NCBI RefSeq assembly: GCF_019455445.1
Contig: NZ_JAHWUS010000005.1
Span: forward strand, 1 to 64,000
DNA: 64,000 nt
Direction of reading: 5' to 3'
Source: Pseudaquidulcibacter saccharophilus
GTDB lineage: Bacteria; Pseudomonadota; Alphaproteobacteria; Caulobacterales; Aquidulcibacteraceae
In this document: positions 15,548 through 60,689 of the stretch, piece after piece
Layout: every line of letters begins with the position of its first letter
Numbering within the stretch: the first letter of the stretch is position 1
Made by a program: the position numbers and the translations under genes
Notes under the pieces: generated by a model
Told to the model about the DNA's origin: nothing
Seen by the model: only the letters and a program-made list of their open reading frames with translations
Databases searched by the model: none

Positions 15548-17343
15548 TATTTTGCTCCAAGATGTGCATCGGCATCGTCACGGTGCGTTACCTCGCGGGA
15601 ACGGGCAAGTGATAATTCCAAATCAAAGGCTGGTAAGAAATCGCGGCTAGAAAGATGTTTATCAAATGCCGGACGGAATTTAGTAATACAGTCGCAAATG
15701 GCATTGCCCGCCGTTTGCCCCAGACCGCAATGGGCGAAATTCTTCATTTGATCGCGTAGGCGCTGAATTTCGTTGATTTCGTATTTTGTTCCACGTCCTA
15801 CGGCAATTTTTTGCATCATGTCTTTGACCAATGAAGTGCCAATCCGACATGGTGAACAGAAACCGCAACTTTCATGGGCAAAAAACTCGGCAAAATTTAG
15901 TGCCACTTCAAACATATCGCGGTCTTTGCCAAATATCATGAATGAGCCAGCGGTTGGCACATCTTCAAAGGCAATGCGGCGGTGGAATTCGTGGGGTGCT
16001 AGGCATACACCCGCCGCACCACTTATCTGCACCGCAATAACATCTTTTGCGCCGCATTCTTCAAGGACGTCGGAAATTCTAACCCCAAATGGGAATTCAT
16101 AAATTCCCGGACGGGCGCAATCACCAGAAACCGACAATAGTTTTGTACCGGTTGATTGGCGTGTGCCGCGACCCTCATACCACGCACCGCCACGTCTTGC
16201 GATTTCTGTAACTTTACAAAGGGTTTCAACGTTATTGACCACGGTTGGTTTGTTTTTATAACCACAAGTCACGGGGAATGGTGGGCGAATTCTTGGGCGC
16301 CCTGCTTTCCCCTCCAAGGATTCAATAAGTGCGGTTTCTTCGCCGCATACATATGCGCCGGCGCCAAGGTGGATTTCAATGTCAAAATCAAAACCATCTA
16401 TTCCAAGAATGTTCTGCCCCAAAAACCCTGCTGCGCGCATATTTTCTAGGAATATTTGCAAAGATTTTACAAGATATTTGTATTCGGCGCGCAAATAAAC
16501 AAACCCTTGTTTTGCACCTGTGGTAAATCCGGCAATTGTCATGCCTTCAAACACGTGACCCGCAAATGATTGTAGCAATACACGGTCTTTAAATGTGCCA
16601 GGTTCACCTTCATCGGCGTTGCAAACAATAAATCGTTCATCACTTTGTGAATTACGGCATAATTCCCATTTGACACCTGTTGTGAAACCTGCACCACCGC
16701 GACCACGAAGGTTTGAACGCTTCATTTCATCAAGCATTCCTTGTGCGCCTTTGGCAACTGCGGCCTTGATGGCATCGCCCATATTATATGCGGTTGCCAA
16801 TAATTCATCGGCACGGCGAATATTATTATCGACTTTGAAATAATGTGATGGCCAGTTTGAAACAGGAAGTCCGCTTTTTACAAGGTCACATATTTCGTCA
16901 ATACGGCGCGGTGTAAGATGGGTAATCGGCATATTGTTAATCAAAAGCGCGGGGCCTTGATCGCACATACCGGTGCATGATGTCATACCAACACTTACAA
17001 GGCCATCTTCAGAAACTGTATCTGGCTCAAGGTGGAGGCGGTTAAGCATATGGTCAAACAAGTCCTTATTGCCCAGCATGCGGTCGGTAATATTATCGGA
17101 AAATAGAATGCGGAATTTTCCATTCGGCTTTGCATGGAAAAATGAATAAAATTCAACAACACTTTGGACCCTGGTTATTGGAATTTCTAATTTATTCGCA
17201 AGATATTCCATGGTTTCAGGTGAAATATAGTCTAATTCATCCTGTATATCGTGCAATATTTGTAATAATCTTGTCGGGTCATTGTGGTGACGGTCAAGAA
17301 TCGGGGTAGCAATTTCAACAAGCGACAATGTGAGGTGCGTCAA
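15547..17343 (-). CDS. hoxF: hydrogenase diaphorase subunit HoxF with fused HoxE/NuoE-like N-terminal domain
   Basis: 598 residues. Residues about 1-150 are NuoE/HoxE-like; the rest is NuoF-like with the NADH/FMN region RGRGGAGFTTGVKWE, ADEGEPGTFKDR and GAGAYVCGEETALIESLEG, and the [4Fe-4S] motif SCGFCSPCRIGT. It exchanges electrons with NAD(H). In the N-terminal domain only the second cysteine pair (TSCTGMC) is visible; the first pair expected near residue 90 is absent. Start is TTG at 17343, preceded by a strong AGGAGGAAG ribosome site. First gene of the hox operon. Confidence 0.95.
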   Translation of the reverse strand: MTHLTLSLVEIATPILDRHHNDPTRLLQILHDIQDELDYISPETMEYLANKLEIPITRVQSVVEFYSFFHAKPNGKFRILFSDNITDRMLGNKDLFDHMLNRLHLEPDTVSEDGLVSVGMTSCTGMCDQGPALLINNMPITHLTPRRIDEICDLVKSGLPVSNWPSHYFKVDNNIRRADELLATAYNMGDAIKAAVAKGAQGMLDEMKRSNLRGRGGAGFTTGVKWELCRNSQSDERFIVCNADEGEPGTFKDRVLLQSFAGHVFEGMTIAGFTTGAKQGFVYLRAEYKYLVKSLQIFLENMRAAGFLGQNILGIDGFDFDIEIHLGAGAYVCGEETALIESLEGKAGRPRIRPPFPVTCGYKNKPTVVNNVETLCKVTEIARRGGAWYEGRGTRQSTGTKLLSVSGDCARPGIYEFPFGVRISDVLEECGAKDVIAVQISGAAGVCLAPHEFHRRIAFEDVPTAGSFMIFGKDRDMFEVALNFAEFFAHESCGFCSPCRIGTSLVKDMMQKIAVGRGTKYEINEIQRLRDQMKNFAHCGLGQTAGNAICDCITKFRPAFDKHLSSRDFLPAFDLELSLARSREVTHRDDADAHLGAK

Positions 17344-21344: not shown

Positions 21345-22343
21345 ATGAACGGTTCAATAAAAGTAAAAGCTTATGCCGAACGCTATTTGCTAGAAGAACC
21401 GTTTCGAATTTCCCGCCATTGTTTTACCCATAGCCAAATGATGGTGGTTGAATTGTCATCTGATGGTTTTGTTGGACGCGGTGAATCAGAACCCCATGAA
21501 TATGATGAAGGTGAATTAAACAAGGCGGTTGAATATGCCCAAAGCCTTGCACCGCATTTCACCAATGGCATGACACGTGTCGAATTAAATAAATTATTGC
21601 CATCAGGCCCAATTCGTAATGCTTTTGATTGCGCACTGTGGGATTTGCTCGCAAAAAAGGCCGGTAAAAGGGTGTGGGAAATTGCGGGGCTTGCGACACC
21701 AAAACCACTACCGACAGTTTTTACCCTAAGCATAGAAACACCCGAATATATGGCGCAAAAAGCGACGCGCCTAAATGACTGGTCACGCTTTAAAATTAAA
21801 TTGGGCGGTATCGAGGCCGACCTTGATATTGAACGAGTTCGCGCAATTCGCGCTGCGCGCCCTGATGCTGAATTGATTGTGGATGCCAATGGCGGTTGGG
21901 ATTTGGAATTGCTTCGGAAAATGACCGATAAATTATCTGAACTTGATGTAATGCTTATTGAGCAACCGTTGTTATTTGGCGCGGATAAGGAATTATTGGG
22001 TTTCAAAAGTCCGGTTCCATTATGTGCCGATGAAACCTGTCTTGATTGTTCGTCATTGGAATATGTTTTGGGGCGCTATCAATATATAAACATCAAACTT
22101 GATAAAACCGGCGGCCTTACCGAAGCATTGGCGCTTGTTAATGCCGCAAAGGATGCCGGGCTTGGGATTATGGTTGGCTGTATGGCGGCAACCTCACTTG
22201 CGATGGCGCCGGCCCATTTAATTGCGCAATATGCCCGCTTTGTCGATCTTGATGGGCCAATGCTTCTGGCAAAGGATAGAGATTTTGGCATGGTTTATAA
22301 AGATGGAATGGTATATCCACCAATTGCCGAATTATGGGGATAA
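21345..22343 (+). CDS. dgcA: enolase-superfamily racemase/epimerase, DgcA-like (N-acetyl-D-glutamate racemase or dipeptide epimerase)
   Basis: 332 residues. Muconate-lactonising subgroup motifs are in order: catalytic lysine pair in FKIKLGG (near 145), metal ligands in DANGGW, EQPL and ADETC, and the second catalytic lysine in NIKLDKTGG. The family was long annotated as L-Ala-D/L-Glu epimerase; in dgc clusters it racemises N-acetyl-D-glutamate. Context with DgcN and a D-aminoacylase favours the dgc role, but muropeptide-derived L-Ala-D-Glu epimerisation cannot be excluded. Ribosome site GGGAGAAGG precedes the ATG. Confidence 0.82.
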   Translation: MNGSIKVKAYAERYLLEEPFRISRHCFTHSQMMVVELSSDGFVGRGESEPHEYDEGELNKAVEYAQSLAPHFTNGMTRVELNKLLPSGPIRNAFDCALWDLLAKKAGKRVWEIAGLATPKPLPTVFTLSIETPEYMAQKATRLNDWSRFKIKLGGIEADLDIERVRAIRAARPDAELIVDANGGWDLELLRKMTDKLSELDVMLIEQPLLFGADKELLGFKSPVPLCADETCLDCSSLEYVLGRYQYINIKLDKTGGLTEALALVNAAKDAGLGIMVGCMAATSLAMAPAHLIAQYARFVDLDGPMLLAKDRDFGMVYKDGMVYPPIAELWG

Positions 22344-41817: not shown

Positions 41818-42876
41818 ATGGGTGAAATTCTCGTTCACAAACTACAAGATGGAAGAACCATCATCGATACTGCGGCTGTAATTCACAATCTGAAAGATGG
41901 TGGTGAGTGCGTTCAAAATGACGAAGATACAATTCTTCGTGCTGCTTTACGATCTGGTATTGGATATTCATATGAATGCAATTCCGGCGGATGTGGCGGC
42001 TGCAAATTCGAACTTGTGGAAGGCGAAATTGAGAACCTTTGGGAAGATGCGCCCGGCCTAACCGCACGTGACCGTGCGCGTGGCCGGCACCTTGCCTGCC
42101 AATGTCGGGCGCGCGGCGATATAAAAATAAAAGCGACAACAAGCCCTGAATATAAGCCCATAATTCCGCCAATTCGCCAGAAAGCCCGCCTTATTGGTGT
42201 AAAAGATATTACCAAAGATATTCGCGAATTTCGCTTTAAGTCAGAGGGCAGCGCAAATTTCCTTCCTGGGCAGTTTGCCATGCTTGAACTTCCGGGGGTT
42301 GGCTCATCGCGTGCATATTCAATGTCCAACATTGGTAATGATGAAAATGAATGGCACTTCCAGATACGTTATGTCGAAAATGGGCGTGGGACATCATACC
42401 TTTTCAATACGCTTAAAATTGGTGGTGAGATTGAAATTGATGGCCCGTATGGTTTGGCATGGCTACGAGAAGATACACAACGCGATATTATTTGCATTGC
42501 CGGAGGTTCAGGCCTTGCACCAATGGTTTCAATTGCGCGTGGTGCGGCAAATTCCGGTATTTTGAAAAACCGTAAACTATATTTCTTTTATGGTGCGCGC
42601 ACCCCAGACGATGTGTGCGGTGAAGAATTATTACGTGAATTGGAAATGGGTGACGCGATAAAATATATTCCGATTGTTTCTGTCCCCGGTGTTGGTGATT
42701 GGGATGGTGAAACTGGTTTTGCCCATGACGCGGTTCGAAAACTTATCGAAGATGATTTTAAAAATTATGATTTCTATTTTGCTGGCCCAACATTAATGTT
42801 GCAGGCAATTCAGGAATTATTGATGATTGAAAAACGTGTTCCGTATAATCAGGTTCATTACGACAGGTTCTTTTAA
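41818..42876 (+). CDS. tmoF: monooxygenase NADH oxidoreductase, ferredoxin-FAD type (TmoF-like)
   Basis: 352 residues. An N-terminal plant-type [2Fe-2S] domain has Cys54, Cys59, Cys62 and Cys94 (CNSGGCGGC and HLACQC), then an FAD domain with RAYSMSN, then an NAD domain with IAGGSGLAP and FYFAGPT. It passes electrons from NADH to the Rieske protein. The domain order is that of TmoF. Start is uncertain: ATG 41818 has no strong ribosome site, and the frame also opens at TTG 41785. The gene ends 1 base before the convergent LysR gene. Confidence 0.9.
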   Translation: MGEILVHKLQDGRTIIDTAAVIHNLKDGGECVQNDEDTILRAALRSGIGYSYECNSGGCGGCKFELVEGEIENLWEDAPGLTARDRARGRHLACQCRARGDIKIKATTSPEYKPIIPPIRQKARLIGVKDITKDIREFRFKSEGSANFLPGQFAMLELPGVGSSRAYSMSNIGNDENEWHFQIRYVENGRGTSYLFNTLKIGGEIEIDGPYGLAWLREDTQRDIICIAGGSGLAPMVSIARGAANSGILKNRKLYFFYGARTPDDVCGEELLRELEMGDAIKYIPIVSVPGVGDWDGETGFAHDAVRKLIEDDFKNYDFYFAGPTLMLQAIQELLMIEKRVPYNQVHYDRFF

Positions 42877-55283: not shown

Positions 55284-55643
55284 TTAAGCAGCCATAACCT
55301 TTTCAACTTCGTTTACAAGATCACGAAGGTGGAATGGTTTTGATAAAACTTTTGCTTGTTGCGGTGCCTGATTAGCAGGGTTTAATGCAACGGCCGCAAA
55401 ACCGGTAATGAACACGATTTTGATATTATTATTTATCTCATTGGCCTTGCGTGCAAGCTCGACACCATCAATACCTGGCATTACAATATCCGTTAGCAAT
55501 AAATCATAATTTACCGCTTGAAGCGCATCAAACGCCTGATCGCCATCGGGATAGTCGCTAACATCATGCCCAGCTTTTACCAAAGCATTTGCAAGAAAGG
55601 TGCGAAGGCTGTCATCATCTTCTGCCAATAATATTTTTGCCAC
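55284..55643 (-). CDS. cpdR: single-domain response regulator CpdR
   Basis: 119 residues, only a receiver domain. Asp pocket AEDDD, phospho-Asp in LLLTDIVMPG (near residue 52), and the C-terminal AKVLSKPFHLRDLVNEVEKV are nearly the same as Caulobacter CpdR, including the signature FITGFAAVALNP. In Caulobacter unphosphorylated CpdR brings ClpXP to the pole to degrade CtrA and other targets. This is the best taxonomic clue to the alphaproteobacterial origin of the window. Confidence 0.92.
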   Translation of the reverse strand: MAKILLAEDDDSLRTFLANALVKAGHDVSDYPDGDQAFDALQAVNYDLLLTDIVMPGIDGVELARKANEINNNIKIVFITGFAAVALNPANQAPQQAKVLSKPFHLRDLVNEVEKVMAA

Positions 55644-55756
55644 TTATATCCCCTGAAATAAAACCTAGTGCGCGCTATATAGCACGGCTAAAGTTGACAA
55701 ATTCTAAAAAACCAATTTCAAAAACAATTAAAGCAAGAGCAAATTACATTATAAAC

Positions 55757-56593
55757 ATGAACACAAGTGAATATTTAGATAGTCAACCGCCGTTTTTGTG
55801 CCATTTTCCGGCACAATTAACGATGCCGCTTTTGCTTTCAAGCCCGCATTCGGGTCATTTTTATCCACGAGAATTTACAGAACAATCGCAATATGACACT
55901 GAAATATTGCAGAATTTTGAAGATCCATTCGTTGATGAAATATATTCATTTGCAGATAAAACTGGAATTTCATACATAAATGCAAACTATGCGCGGGCAT
56001 ATGTTGATTTAAACCGCGCACCCGATTCTTTTGATAATTTGTTGTTCAAAGATAATTTAAACCTTAACCCATGCTTGAACACTAAAAACGGTTATGGTGT
56101 TATTCCGCGCCTTATTGCCGCCGACATGCCAATTTATAAGGAAAAACTACACATTGCCGAAGCGCGCAATAGAATCAATTCTGTTTACAAGCCTTATCAC
56201 GAGGCAATATCTAATGAATTGGCGCGAATAAAAGCAAAATTTGGCAAGGCAATTCTTATCGATTGCCATTCAATGCCACAAAAAGCCTTGGGCAAAGATG
56301 ATATTGATATAATTATCGGTGATTGCTTTGGCGCATCCATAAGCCCACTTTTAAGTGACACTCTTGTACGTCATTTTACCAAACAAGGGCTAAAAGTTCG
56401 CAAAAATCATATTTATTCTGGCGGCTACATTACCAAAACCTATGGAAAGCCAAAAGACAATATTCAGGCCGTGCAAATTGAGATTAATCGCAAATTATAC
56501 ATGCTGCCTGATAAATATGCGAAATCGCCCCAATTTGATAGCGTTTCTGCCCTTATAGCCAAGGCAATAATTTCATTCATGCAAGAAATTTAA
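55757..56593 (+). CDS. N-formylglutamate amidohydrolase family protein
   Basis: 278 residues from ATG 55757. Family motifs are LLLSSPHSGHFYPREF near the start, NANYARAYVDLNR, ILIDCHSMP with the metal-site His, and NHIYSGGYITKTYGKP near the C-terminus. It hydrolyses N-formyl-glutamate or similar formamides; no hut genes are nearby, so histidine breakdown is not assured. The frame is open up to 55589 but overlaps cpdR there, so the later start is preferred. Confidence 0.87.
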   Translation: MNTSEYLDSQPPFLCHFPAQLTMPLLLSSPHSGHFYPREFTEQSQYDTEILQNFEDPFVDEIYSFADKTGISYINANYARAYVDLNRAPDSFDNLLFKDNLNLNPCLNTKNGYGVIPRLIAADMPIYKEKLHIAEARNRINSVYKPYHEAISNELARIKAKFGKAILIDCHSMPQKALGKDDIDIIIGDCFGASISPLLSDTLVRHFTKQGLKVRKNHIYSGGYITKTYGKPKDNIQAVQIEINRKLYMLPDKYAKSPQFDSVSALIAKAIISFMQEI

Positions 56594-56595
56594 GC

Positions 56596-56679
56596 AAAAA
56601 AAGCCCCGCATGATAGCGGGGCAAATAAAGTTACAAGGGAGGAAACGCCCGAAAAGGGCTAAAGACGCCGAAGCGTCAT
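56596..56679 (-). ncRNA. putative intergenic small RNA with anti-Shine-Dalgarno linker
   Basis: About 84 nt on the minus strand, inferred from promoter and terminator. From 5': hairpin GACGC-UUCG-GCGUC (56677-56664), hairpin GCCC-UUUUC-GGGC (56659-56647), an unpaired linker with UUUCCUCCCUU complementary to ribosome sites, and a terminator GCCCCGC/GCGGGGC (56622-56603) followed by seven U (56602-56596). No gene on this strand lies near enough upstream for the terminator to serve it. CU-rich loops of this kind are typical of alphaproteobacterial regulatory RNAs; I do not assign a named family. Confidence 0.72.
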
Positions 56680-56685
56680 GACCTA

Positions 56686-56714
56686 TATATACTTCGCAGG
56701 CGCAAAATAAGCAA
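56686..56714 (-). promoter_or_regulatory. sigma70-like promoter of the small RNA
   Basis: On the minus strand: -35 TTGCTT (56714-56709), 17-base spacer, -10 TATATA (56691-56686), putting the start near 56679, just ahead of the first hairpin. Confidence 0.65.
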
Positions 56715-56954
56715 ATGATTTTTTGCAAGTGCAGCATCCAAAAACGCAATACAAGGCTGTTTTTAATCTATTTGCACAATACAGACCCCTAAATGACGAA
56801 TTTTTGTGCAAATATACATCGATATTTGGAAATATTATCCTTTTTGGCTATTTTTTGTGACTGCAATTTACTGCAATTAAAATATATCTGCACTCGTTTT
56901 TATTACATTTTAAGGGTATCAGATGGCTTCTATCTATAAAACTCGGGGAAAAAC

Positions 56955-57674
56955 ATGCCAAAACTTGCATTAATTCGTCATGGACAATCACAATGGAATC
57001 TTGAAAACCGCTTCACAGGTTGGGTTGATGTCAACCTTACTGAAGAAGGTGAAAAACAAGCAACTAAATCAGGCGAACTTTTGAAAGCAACTGGCATAGA
57101 ATTTTCACAAGCCTTTACATCATTCCAAACCCGCGCAATTCGCACACTTTGGCTTGCATTAACGGCAATGGGCAGATGCTATTTACCGGAAACCAAATCT
57201 TGGCGCCTTAATGAGCGTCACTATGGTGGTCTTACTGGCCTTGATAAAACCGAAACCGCAAAAAAACATGGCGATGAACAGGTTCGCATTTGGCGCCGCT
57301 CATATGATATTGCGCCGCCACCGCTTGCAAAAGATGATCCAAACCACCCATCACAAGACTTACGTTATAAAGATGTTCCTGCAAATGAGCTTCCAGATAC
57401 CGAAAGCCTTAAAACAACATTGGAACGTGTAACCCCGTTTTGGGAATCAGATATCGCACCGGCGCTTAAAGGAGGTAACGTTGTAATTGCGGCGCATGGC
57501 AACAGCCTGCGGGCAATTGTTAAAAACCTTTTTGGTCTTGATGAAGAAGAAATCATGAAGGTGGAAATTCCAACCGGCAACCCGCTTTTGATTGATTTGG
57601 ACGATAATTTAAAACCAATCAGCGCGAAATATCTTGATGAAGCGCGTGCAAACCCATTACCAGCAATTAAATAG
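56955..57674 (+). CDS. gpmA: 2,3-bisphosphoglycerate-dependent phosphoglycerate mutase
   Basis: 239 residues. The catalytic phospho-His is in LIRHGQSQWN (residues 6-15), followed by FTGWVDVNLTEEG, LNERHYGGLTGL and AAHGNSLRAIVK with the second His, all as in GpmA. It interconverts 3- and 2-phosphoglycerate. It starts after a CGGGGAAAAAC ribosome site and is followed 7 bases later by the deaminase gene. About 275 bases of AT-rich DNA between the small-RNA promoter and gpmA hold its promoter and nothing else I can identify. Confidence 0.94.
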   Translation: MPKLALIRHGQSQWNLENRFTGWVDVNLTEEGEKQATKSGELLKATGIEFSQAFTSFQTRAIRTLWLALTAMGRCYLPETKSWRLNERHYGGLTGLDKTETAKKHGDEQVRIWRRSYDIAPPPLAKDDPNHPSQDLRYKDVPANELPDTESLKTTLERVTPFWESDIAPALKGGNVVIAAHGNSLRAIVKNLFGLDEEEIMKVEIPTGNPLLIDLDDNLKPISAKYLDEARANPLPAIK

Positions 57675-58140: not shown

Positions 58141-60689
58141 TATTTCCACCTAATTGTTGCGCCGTACATTCTTGGCTCTGCTGGGAAACCATCAATTTGC
58201 GATGTAATCGCCCGCACCGTGCCGCTTTTTGACATTAACGGGCTTGCACCTTGCAATGGGCCATCAAAATATATTTGCGCGTAATGCTCATCAGATAGAT
58301 TATTACCCCAAAGCATCAAATCCAACCCACTGCGAAGCGTTAAAGTTATACTCGCATTATATAAATCAAGTTCACGAGTTACTTTGCGACCATCAAGGTT
58401 TGAACCACCATTGAATGAAGACGTGTGGCGATGATTGAAATTGATGCGGTAATCATGCCCTGCAATCACATTTTCATAGGTAACATTATTTGTCGCCGTC
58501 CATTTTGGTGAAGCTGTCAATTGCTGCCCGGCAATCAAATAAAGATTGAGGTTTTGCCCAAGAAAAGTCGAGAAATCAGCAGGGTTCCCTAAATTATCCA
58601 TATATTTGGTGTCATAATAGGCAAGCCCGCCATCATAACGCAAACCCTTGATTGGGGTTTTATAGCCGATTTCAAACTCCGCACCCTTTGAATAAACCTT
58701 TGGTACAGAGGCAACAATTTGCGAAATACCGTTATAGGTATTTAATTGGAAGTCGGAATAATCGGCCTTGAAAATCGCCAAGGCGGTTTTTAAATTGCCG
58801 CCAAGCCAATTATTTTTCATGCCAATTTCATAATTATCAACCACTTCGGCAGGGAATGAAGTATCAGGCGCGCGAATTGTCTGCGCACCCACCGCCCCCG
58901 AAACAATCGATCCCTTATTATCAGACATCACACGATCAAGGTTAAAGCCACCGGCCTTGTGACCATGGGCATAGGTGGCATAGACAAAAACCTTTTCATT
59001 CGGGCGGTAATCAATACTAAGAACGCCTGAAAACTGGTCATCATTGAATTTTTGTTTATGATCTAAGCCATCAAGTGCTGAACGCGCCCACGGCACACAA
59101 ACAGTCCCAACCACACCCGCAAGATTTGCCGGCGCAATTGCCGATGGGTCAAAACCGTAAACTTGTTCGATTGCCTTACATCCCGCCGACCCCGTGGTTT
59201 CATATTTGGCGGAAAAATCTTTTTCAAGGTGATTATAACGCAAACCAAGGGTTAGGTTAACTTCATCATTAATTGCATAGATATTATGGCTATAAAGCGC
59301 AAGCGCATCGGCATTTTGTTCAAAATAATCCGACCAACCGCCGCCCAATGTCATGGCTTGGGAATTGGCATTAAACACACCACCCGTTGCCGAAGATATA
59401 ATATTACGAAGGTTTTGCGCAAAGCCAGAAACCGGATTAGTTAAAGCACCCGCCCCCGAAAACAATGCGCCAATATAGGTTTCATAATCCTTGCCATAAC
59501 GGAAAACATTGTGCGAATTGGTTTGTTCATGGCTATAAAACGCGCCAACTTTCCAATTTAATTTGCCATTTTCGCCATCAAGAGAAACTTCTTGGGTAAA
59601 TTCTTTTATTTTATTGCCAGGGCGTTCTGACAAATCACGATACAAAATATCCGCCCCCGACCATTCACCATCTTGGGCATAGGCAAATTGGAAATAGCGA
59701 TATGATGAAACGGATTTAAGGTGCTTGCCGGCAAAATTATAATCAATATCAAGGCTTATACCACGGTCATGCACAATCTGGTCAAAATAGCGATCCGCAC
59801 TGGCGCTATATTCATTTTGCGTATTATTTGGTGATAAGGCATTGGCCGCAATTCGGTTTAGAATGGTGGTTGTGTTAACCGGTGCCCGACTATCGGGGAC
59901 GTAAACAAAGGCATTACAACATGCCTCATTACGTTCAGATATATCGAAAATAAGGCGTGCTTTCAAAGCATCATTTGGTTTGTAAACCGCCTGCGAACGC
60001 AAAAGCCAATAATTAACATCATTATCCTTGCGTTCATTGAGTTGCCCCGCATTTACCGTGAAATATCCATCGCGGTTACGCACCACACCAAACAAACTCG
60101 CGGCAATATTTTCGCTTATGCCGCCCGAAATGCCCGCTTGAAGCCCAGTGGCATTATAATTACCCTTTGTAAACTCACCCCAAGTTTCTGTGGTCTGGGT
60201 TGGTTCTTTGGTTTTTATGGCAATAAGACCCGTTGTGGTATTGCGTCCGGTAATCGTGCTTTGTGGACCACGCAGGATTTCGACCCGTTCTAATTCGCCC
60301 AAATCACCAAACGCCACCGAAGTGCGCGCACGCGATACATTGTCAATCATAACGCCTACGCTTGGCTCTAGGCCAACATTCGTCCCCTGTGTGCCGATAC
60401 CACGTATGCGGGCGGTTACTGATGACGCCGATTCAGATTGCGGTAATTGCAAAAACGGTGTGATTTGTACCAATTCTGAAAGATGATGTATGCTATTATC
60501 TTCAAGTTTTTGTTGATTATAGACCGAAACGGCAAGTGGCATTTTTTCGGATTTGCCTTTGCCTATAACAATGATTTGCTCATCAACATTTAAAACATCA
60601 TCGGCATATGCGTGGCTCGCAACCGCAAACACCGCCAAAGCAATAGTGCATGATAAAAAATTGCGATAATTTGGATGATGTTTTTTCAT
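58137..60689 (-). CDS. TonB-dependent receptor
   Basis: 850 residues. A signal peptide (to SHAYAD) is followed by a TonB-box-like DEQIIVIG, plug domain (MPLAVSVYNQQKLEDNSIHHLSEL, then RIRGIGTQGTNVGLEPSVGVMIDNV and VEILRGPQSTITGRNTTTGLI), and a barrel ending in GATIRWKY. This is the broad siderophore/small-molecule type common in sphingomonads and Caulobacterales; ligand unknown. It is divergent from an HxlR regulator and an FAH-family hydrolase gene, so uptake of an aromatic or keto-acid compound is conceivable. Confidence 0.9.
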   Translation of the reverse strand: MKKHHPNYRNFLSCTIALAVFAVASHAYADDVLNVDEQIIVIGKGKSEKMPLAVSVYNQQKLEDNSIHHLSELVQITPFLQLPQSESASSVTARIRGIGTQGTNVGLEPSVGVMIDNVSRARTSVAFGDLGELERVEILRGPQSTITGRNTTTGLIAIKTKEPTQTTETWGEFTKGNYNATGLQAGISGGISENIAASLFGVVRNRDGYFTVNAGQLNERKDNDVNYWLLRSQAVYKPNDALKARLIFDISERNEACCNAFVYVPDSRAPVNTTTILNRIAANALSPNNTQNEYSASADRYFDQIVHDRGISLDIDYNFAGKHLKSVSSYRYFQFAYAQDGEWSGADILYRDLSERPGNKIKEFTQEVSLDGENGKLNWKVGAFYSHEQTNSHNVFRYGKDYETYIGALFSGAGALTNPVSGFAQNLRNIISSATGGVFNANSQAMTLGGGWSDYFEQNADALALYSHNIYAINDEVNLTLGLRYNHLEKDFSAKYETTGSAGCKAIEQVYGFDPSAIAPANLAGVVGTVCVPWARSALDGLDHKQKFNDDQFSGVLSIDYRPNEKVFVYATYAHGHKAGGFNLDRVMSDNKGSIVSGAVGAQTIRAPDTSFPAEVVDNYEIGMKNNWLGGNLKTALAIFKADYSDFQLNTYNGISQIVASVPKVYSKGAEFEIGYKTPIKGLRYDGGLAYYDTKYMDNLGNPADFSTFLGQNLNLYLIAGQQLTASPKWTATNNVTYENVIAGHDYRINFNHRHTSSFNGGSNLDGRKVTRELDLYNASITLTLRSGLDLMLWGNNLSDEHYAQIYFDGPLQGASPLMSKSGTVRAITSQIDGFPAEPRMYGATIRWKY

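Follow-up and report, generated by a model that had tools for sequence, protein, structure and literature searches.

A chromosomal αR8 small RNA gene of Pseudaquidulcibacter saccharophilus with paired PhaR-like promoter sites, and αR8 copies in viral contigs

The bacterial small RNA family now called αR8, whose studied members are MmgR of Sinorhizobium meliloti and SisA-D of Caulobacter crescentus (PMC12559287, PMC7143759), was set out in a 2005 paper, which regarded it as a separate RNA of antisense type, equipped with a promoter and a terminator, and not as a leader (PMC1273637). Association with Hfq and repression of mRNAs are both known from αR8 relatives (PMC12559287, PMC7143759). In Caulobacter, seed-dependent repression of an mRNA reporter by SisA has been established by experiment; the targets of SisA include TonB receptors, a second RNA, CrfA, competes for SisA, and the gene for N-formylglutamate amidohydrolase (FGase) is the usual neighbour of αR8 (PMC12559287). 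Work on S. meliloti adds a transcriptional layer. There, the mmgR promoter is bound by PhaR in electrophoretic mobility shift assays (EMSA), and the shifts are abolished when the palindromes are excluded or point-mutated. PhaR recognises the consensus WNWD2NYGCRNYGCRNH2WNW, its site in mmgR is listed 13 nt from the transcription start, and the phaP1 and phaP2 promoters have two PhaR sites flanking the -35 element (PMC12542648). The word PhaR does not occur in the main text of the SisA study (PMC12559287).

The window analysed here is a 64-kb stretch of the chromosome of P. saccharophilus. An initial annotation had proposed that its minus strand encodes a complete small RNA gene, and every element of that proposal can be located between 56714 and 56596: a -35 element TTGCTT (56709..56714), 17 bases, a -10 element TATATA (56686..56691), a UUCG-capped hairpin, a second hairpin, the stretch UUUCCUCCCUU, and an all-GC terminator stem of 7 bp followed by seven U. 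The transcription start probably lies near 56679, a 5' end deduced from the promoter, which gives an RNA of about 84 nt (56596..56679). The 5' hairpin, GACGC-UUCG-GCGUC, occupies 56664..56677; a clamp hairpin, GCCC-UUUUC-GGGC (56647..56659), stands immediately before the single-stranded anti-Shine-Dalgarno seed UUUCCUCCCU (56636..56645), and the Rho-independent terminator spans 56596..56622. The 84-nt RNA folds at -32 kcal/mol, compared with -18.1 +/- 2.9 kcal/mol for 200 shuffles, none of which folds as low (z = -4.8); the minimum fold has three hairpins and leaves the CU stretch wholly unpaired. Over positions 56400-57000 a terminator scanner returned this terminator alone, with 0.5 expected. 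A sigma-70 promoter scanner run over the same positions did not list the TTGCTT/TATATA promoter, because TTGCTT agrees with TTGACA at only 3 of 6 positions. TATATA or TATATT is retained at the -10 place in same-genus loci, and in the window an alternative TATATA register (56684-56689) would give a 19-base spacer.

The Rfam model RF00519 (suhB/MmgR/αR8) is matched over its full length, 1-77, at 56588-56666 on the minus strand, with 48.5 bits against a gathering cut-off of 41; a score above that cut-off makes a chance origin very unlikely. The RNA is almost certainly a member of this family. The gene is thus not of a new kind, as the initial annotation might have had it, but the chromosomal, FGase-linked copy of a family described since 2005 (PMC1273637). 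The 5' hairpin lies almost entirely 5' of position 1 of the Rfam model. In its seed, the RNA is identical to SisA over ten bases, and it shares with SisA the hairpin just 5' of the seed, the terminator and the FGase neighbour (PMC12559287). It also resembles MmgR, a single-copy RNA of about 77 nt with three stem-loops and a PhaR-type site near its transcription start. Whereas Caulobacter has four SisA siblings, the 2.84-Mb genome containing the window has one RF00519 match over the cut-off, the gene in the window. The next-best match, at C4:469949 (26.9 bits), was rejected as a second copy, being a terminator-like hairpin with no seed nearby, and a weaker match at C4:235611 was not counted either. 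This latter locus (L085, G000:C4, about 235611-235682, minus strand) consists of a 5' hairpin, TTTCCTCCCG and a GC hairpin with no T run after it, and is possibly a decayed or variant second αR8. Matches below the cut-off to RyhB, Betaproteobacteria toxic sRNA, Hrs1, GcvB and anti-hemB overlap the terminator and were dismissed.

Another family has some claim on an RNA of this kind. The AbcR (αr15) RNAs are partly homologous to the suhB model and likewise carry CU-rich motifs (PMC7143759). AbcR RNAs are, however, 114-120 nt long and require two CU-rich anti-Shine-Dalgarno motifs, whereas the RNA described here has about 84 nt and a single such motif, a second being absent from its sequence. No lsrB gene is found among the annotated neighbours, where FGase and cpdR-like genes stand instead, and the match to RF00519 runs the full length of the model. 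Membership of the AbcR family is accordingly very improbable, and assignment to αR8 is preferred.

The genomic address points to the same family. The FGase gene (PF05013, E 4.6e-67; 55589..56593, plus strand, from the start listed for the reading frame, the true start possibly being further in) is convergent with the RNA, and a single-domain response regulator (PF00072), which we take to be CpdR-like, is encoded at 55284..55643 on the minus strand. This is the usual address of the family. A gpmA-like gene lies upstream of the RNA and is divergent from it. In each of the five loci from the genus (L001, L037, L039, L040, L041), the RNA is flanked by FGase, cpdR and gpmA. One of these loci, L041, falls within contig JAPUEP010000040.1 of a Hyphomonadaceae metagenome-assembled genome, which marks the organism as a Hyphomonadaceae-like alphaproteobacterium. 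Further afield, among the best 80 of at least 586 confirmed matches from a search with the cpdR protein (hereafter the named loci), FGase is present in 79 and the TTTCCTCCC seed with a T run in 63; in 61 loci the distance from seed to FGase is below 900 bp. Two named Maricaulis loci (L346, L347) keep the cpdR-FGase arrangement and have no αR8 seed.

Two bases separate the FGase stop codon from the last U of the RNA, and this close fit of a gene on the opposite strand raises the question whether the hairpins are a mere terminator region of the plus-strand FGase, or the leader of a nearby gene, with no independent RNA at all. Against this stand the T run, found on the minus strand only, the divergent orientation of the upstream gpmA-like gene, and the conservation, with covariation, of the 5' hairpin, clamp and seed; the 2005 description of the family had likewise concluded in favour of an independent RNA (PMC1273637). 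We consider such an origin of the hairpins scarcely credible, and the independent αR8 gene is retained as the reading.

Covariation across homologues strongly supports the proposed structure; absence of compensatory changes in the stems had been named beforehand as a possible refutation. A set of 71 loci (L001 and L009-L078) was studied. Eight of these served, together with the structure of the window RNA, to build a covariance model (R1), which matches 68 of the 71 at E 0.01 or better, as well as 63 of the 80 named loci, though neither of the Maricaulis loci. In the resulting alignment of 68 copies (65 distinct rows), changes on both sides were found in 15 of 16 base pairs, which none of 500 shuffles reached. 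Among the distinct rows, 94.6% of cells are paired compared to 71.9% when shuffled, and the covariation score is 0.527 against 0.139 +/- 0.012 for shuffled alignments and 0.028-0.150 for slid controls. Fitting the alignment to the structure biases these counts towards the structure; the effect is large even so. All five pairs of the 5' hairpin (93.9% of cells paired) and all seven of the terminator stem have changed on both sides; in the clamp hairpin 100% of cells are paired, three of four pairs have changed on both sides and one is invariant. A MAFFT alignment was discarded in favour of the R1 alignment, as variable loop lengths left it with no useful structure (3 invariant pairs).

TTTCCTCCC is invariant in 50 sequences, which were themselves selected by that very motif. 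When single sequences were folded with the 42 nt upstream of the seed included (n = 62, leaving out L062, which has no T run, and the loci without TTTCCTCCC), the 5' hairpin was recovered in 58, the clamp in 54 and the terminator in 58; an open seed, with at least 9 of its 10 bases unpaired in the minimum-energy fold, was seen in 39, and all features jointly in 35. Of 61 genomes (the organism's own and 60 relatives), 56 have an RF00519 match at E 0.001 or better, and all 56 have one over the cut-off. A plasmid search with the window RNA as query gave no match at E 0.01.

The region upstream of the RNA holds two PhaR-type palindromes of the form YGCR-NN-YGCR that flank the -35 element. The proximal one, TTTGCGCCTGCGAA (56693..56706), fills most of the spacer between the -35 and -10 elements; the distal one, TGCACTTGCA (56724..56733), lies upstream of the -35, its centre 29 bp from that of the proximal site. 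Such a two-site arrangement around the -35 is like that of S. meliloti phaP1 and phaP2, while S. meliloti mmgR has one listed site, and the centre of each palindrome comprises two bases here compared to one in the S. meliloti consensus (YGCR-N-YGCR) (PMC12542648). Under a strict pattern, TTYGCR-N1/2-YGCRAA, TTTGCGCCTGCGAA is the sole site within the window and is among 17 sites with a two-base centre in the whole genome, where the reversed pattern occurs 3 times. Recurrence of the palindrome in homologues is pronounced. Between positions -95 and -35 relative to the seed, 58 of the 63 upstream regions of αR8 in loci L001-L078 (window and second copies included) hold it. Shuffled controls have a mean of 11.2 and a maximum of 20, and elsewhere in these loci the counts are 5, 20, 12 and 5 of 62. 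Five regions lack it: three from G054, a genome with many copies (L011, L074, L076), the second copy of G053 at L078, and L057 from G010. In the named loci the palindrome precedes the seed in 49 of 62, against 4, 12, 21 and 6 of 62 in other stretches.

The genome encodes both the polyhydroxybutyrate (PHB) sensor PhaR, also named AniA (PF07879, E 1.6e-30), and PhaC (E 6.5e-70). Across 192 genomes of the class, αR8 (E 1e-5) and PhaR (E 1e-3) occur together in 88, αR8 alone in 10, PhaR alone in 28 and neither in 66; the corresponding odds ratio, 21, overstates the association, since both shared ancestry and small genomes with neither raise it. In one family of the order, four of six sampled members (G039, G051, G055, G059) have neither an αR8 nor a PhaR match, and the sensor and the RNA were possibly lost together there. 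In G026 and G027, αR8 is present with no PhaR match.

Elsewhere in the genome the strict sites show no concentration at PHB genes. About 10 of the 17 sites with a two-base centre lie inside reading frames, by the analysis's own calls. The strict one-base form occurs at 9 sites and its reversed pattern at 1; in the 8 loci examined it is mostly within reading frames. One strict palindrome (L117:1501-1514, G000:C4:1156365) stands about 70 bp upstream of what appears by eye to be a malyl-CoA lyase gene. The region upstream of phaR itself has a relaxed one-base site, and in the phaR-phaA and phaC stretches no strict site of either centre length is found, which reduces confidence in PhaR control. 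We considered a lineage-wide switch in which the PhaR operator would have gone from one central base to two, and rejected it, as one-base sites occur upstream of phaR within the genus, and two-base ones upstream of phaR in certain genomes outside it. Both spacings have been reported for PhaR elsewhere.

It is therefore worth asking whether the RNA is indeed αR8 and its promoter palindromes serve another regulator, such as a nitrogen-status factor. S. meliloti mmgR is also induced through NtrC (PMC7143759). The window palindromes have a centre that exceeds the S. meliloti consensus by one base, and phaR and phaC of this genome are without a strict site, both of which would suit a regulator other than PhaR. 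Nitrogen control in S. meliloti requires the heptamer TTGTGCA between the -35 and -10 elements, where it would overlap the PhaR site; the heptamer is absent from the window promoter. In favour of PhaR, motif and position agree with the EMSA-tested mmgR site (PMC12542648), and αR8 and PhaR co-occur across the class, though to a degree inflated by shared ancestry. Another regulator is a serious but rather unlikely candidate, and control of αR8 transcription by PhaR in this organism is, judging from the promoter sequence, moderately probable. According to this model, PhaR would occupy two operators flanking the -35 and repress αR8 transcription, which would be released when polyhydroxybutyrate draws PhaR off. 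The initial annotation had raised a possible link to stress or growth in general; a likelier input is the status of carbon and nitrogen storage sensed via PhaR, given that PhaR-type sites overlap the promoter and that PhaR binds the S. meliloti mmgR promoter (PMC12542648).

That the RNA represses translation in trans had also been proposed, and this agrees with the accepted view of the family, for which the experimental support comes from SisA (PMC12559287); for the present RNA it is an extension from its relatives. By that analogy, the open UUUCCUCCCU seed would pair, with Hfq, to the Shine-Dalgarno region of target mRNAs and block their translation, and the targets may be mRNAs for carbon uptake and storage functions. 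We hold seed pairing with Shine-Dalgarno regions and the ensuing repression to be very probable. The 10-mer antisense to the seed, AGGGAGGAAA, has three exact sites in the genome besides the gene itself, each 2-3 nt ahead of a possible start codon. The genes that follow encode a protein without a Pfam match, an AMP-binding enzyme of the acyl-CoA synthetase type (PF00501) with a TTG start, and a GAF/Fis-type regulator, for which a longer ATG reading would place the site inside the gene. The site at the AMP-binding gene is kept in one of three genomes searched (G003) and absent from the other two (G001, G002). The reversed pattern of the 10-mer is rarer in these genomes. Antisense sites before start codons are nonetheless weak evidence, because they are AG-rich like any strong Shine-Dalgarno sequence.

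Another genome of the same order, G037, has 11 exact antisense sites, one of which is its own αR8 gene; 8 of them are followed, 2-8 nt further on, by a reading frame with 77 aa or more. Exact sites in G037 precede two TonB receptors, two P450s and one short-chain dehydrogenase (L308, L313, L315, L316, L317); those before TonB receptors fit the Caulobacter picture, a resemblance that is suggestive only. In the window genome, no exact seed match precedes the TonB receptor gene near the RNA, which starts at 60689 on the minus strand. Unlike Caulobacter, where SisA has the sponge CrfA, no sponge was recognised among the three exact antisense sites. MmgR acts on phasins in S. meliloti, whereas a protein search of the window genome found no Phasin_2 match, so that this effect may not apply here. 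Among the 48 ATG reading frames in the window with 150 aa or more, the computed duplex energy was best at 21345(+) (-27.8 kcal/mol; median -12); a set of that size is too small for a target claim, and the ranking was set aside.

Copies of αR8 also occur in viral contigs. A phage search with the window RNA as query gave 36 weak matches, with E up to 10, none covering 80% of the RNA. A scan of viral contigs with a 14-mer of the RNA core found at least 120 stretches, 80 loci of which were kept. R1 has 57 matches in 55 of these 80, a count favoured by the choice of loci for that very 14-mer. A terminator-like hairpin follows the 14-mer in only 38 of the 80, compared to 13 of 80 with shuffled downstream letters, so not every such site is a gene. 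A second scan, with the 24-mer GCCCTYCTTGGGCGTTTCCTCCCT, found at least 76 unique loci. The RF00519 cut-off is passed by 39 of 41 viral loci (15/15, 12/13 and 12/13; the misses are L128 and L127), which were picked by R1 score, or by the 24-mer together with packaging genes, and are not a random sample. The viral loci considered are L125-L204, further ones from the 24-mer scan (L205-L243 in part, L409-L451), and the named phages L407 and L408.

Named records over the cut-off are Bradyrhizobium phage ppBeUSDA76-1 (L407:3998-4078) and Microcystis phage Mwe-JY08 (L408:3995-4078), with no RNA annotated in the stretches inspected of either. In ppBeUSDA76-1, the prophage of Bradyrhizobium elkanii USDA 76, the αR8 RNA lies at about 16066-16146 of OP596613.1. 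An HNH endonuclease gene comes immediately after it, then two small genes, terminase and portal. More generally, 50 viral loci extend more than 2.5 kb beyond the RNA; in 19 of these a gene follows on the same strand that encodes either a terminase large subunit, at no more than 2.5 kb, or an HNH protein, at no more than 0.9 kb. The proteins were checked for L204, L142 and L407. The Mwe-JY08 copy (PP395640.1, about 42319-42402) comes from a phage recorded from the cyanobacterium Microcystis. Since the copy exceeds the Rfam cut-off, an alphaproteobacterium associated with Microcystis may be the phage's true host.

Phage rather than host origin of the viral contigs was checked solely by searching for host neighbours and counting palindromes. 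Searches by tblastn (E 1e-5) with FGase, CpdR, GpmA and three other neighbours from the window gave no match in the 76 unique 24-mer loci. There, PhaR-type palindromes do not rise above background (11 of 74, against a shuffled mean of 9.2 and maximum of 14). With host neighbours absent and palindromes at background, the viral copies retain the seed and scaffold, not the host operator. Among the matches listed by full-text literature searches, with the 2016 family survey outside their scope, no title or abstract concerned phage-borne αR8. Tentatively, αR8 may exist in two modes: a chromosomal copy wired to the PHB sensor PhaR, and copies in temperate alphaproteobacterial phages which, with the same seed, could enforce the carbon-economy programme of the host, in lysogeny or infection, irrespective of the cell's storage state.

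Taken together, the best overall explanation is an αR8 RNA that very probably acts by seed repression and, with moderate probability, is gated by PhaR. What is new lies in the operator evidence, that is, the paired PhaR-like sites at the promoter, and in the αR8 copies found in many viral contigs; the latter, as candidates from sequence, are the most novel lead. An anonymous small RNA is hereby settled as an FGase-linked αR8 gene, and control by PhaR, which the papers cited here show directly only in S. meliloti, is suggested as general for FGase-linked αR8 copies. If true, PHB sensing in much of the class would have αR8 as its post-transcriptional arm. The phage copies would give viruses a way into that network as well.
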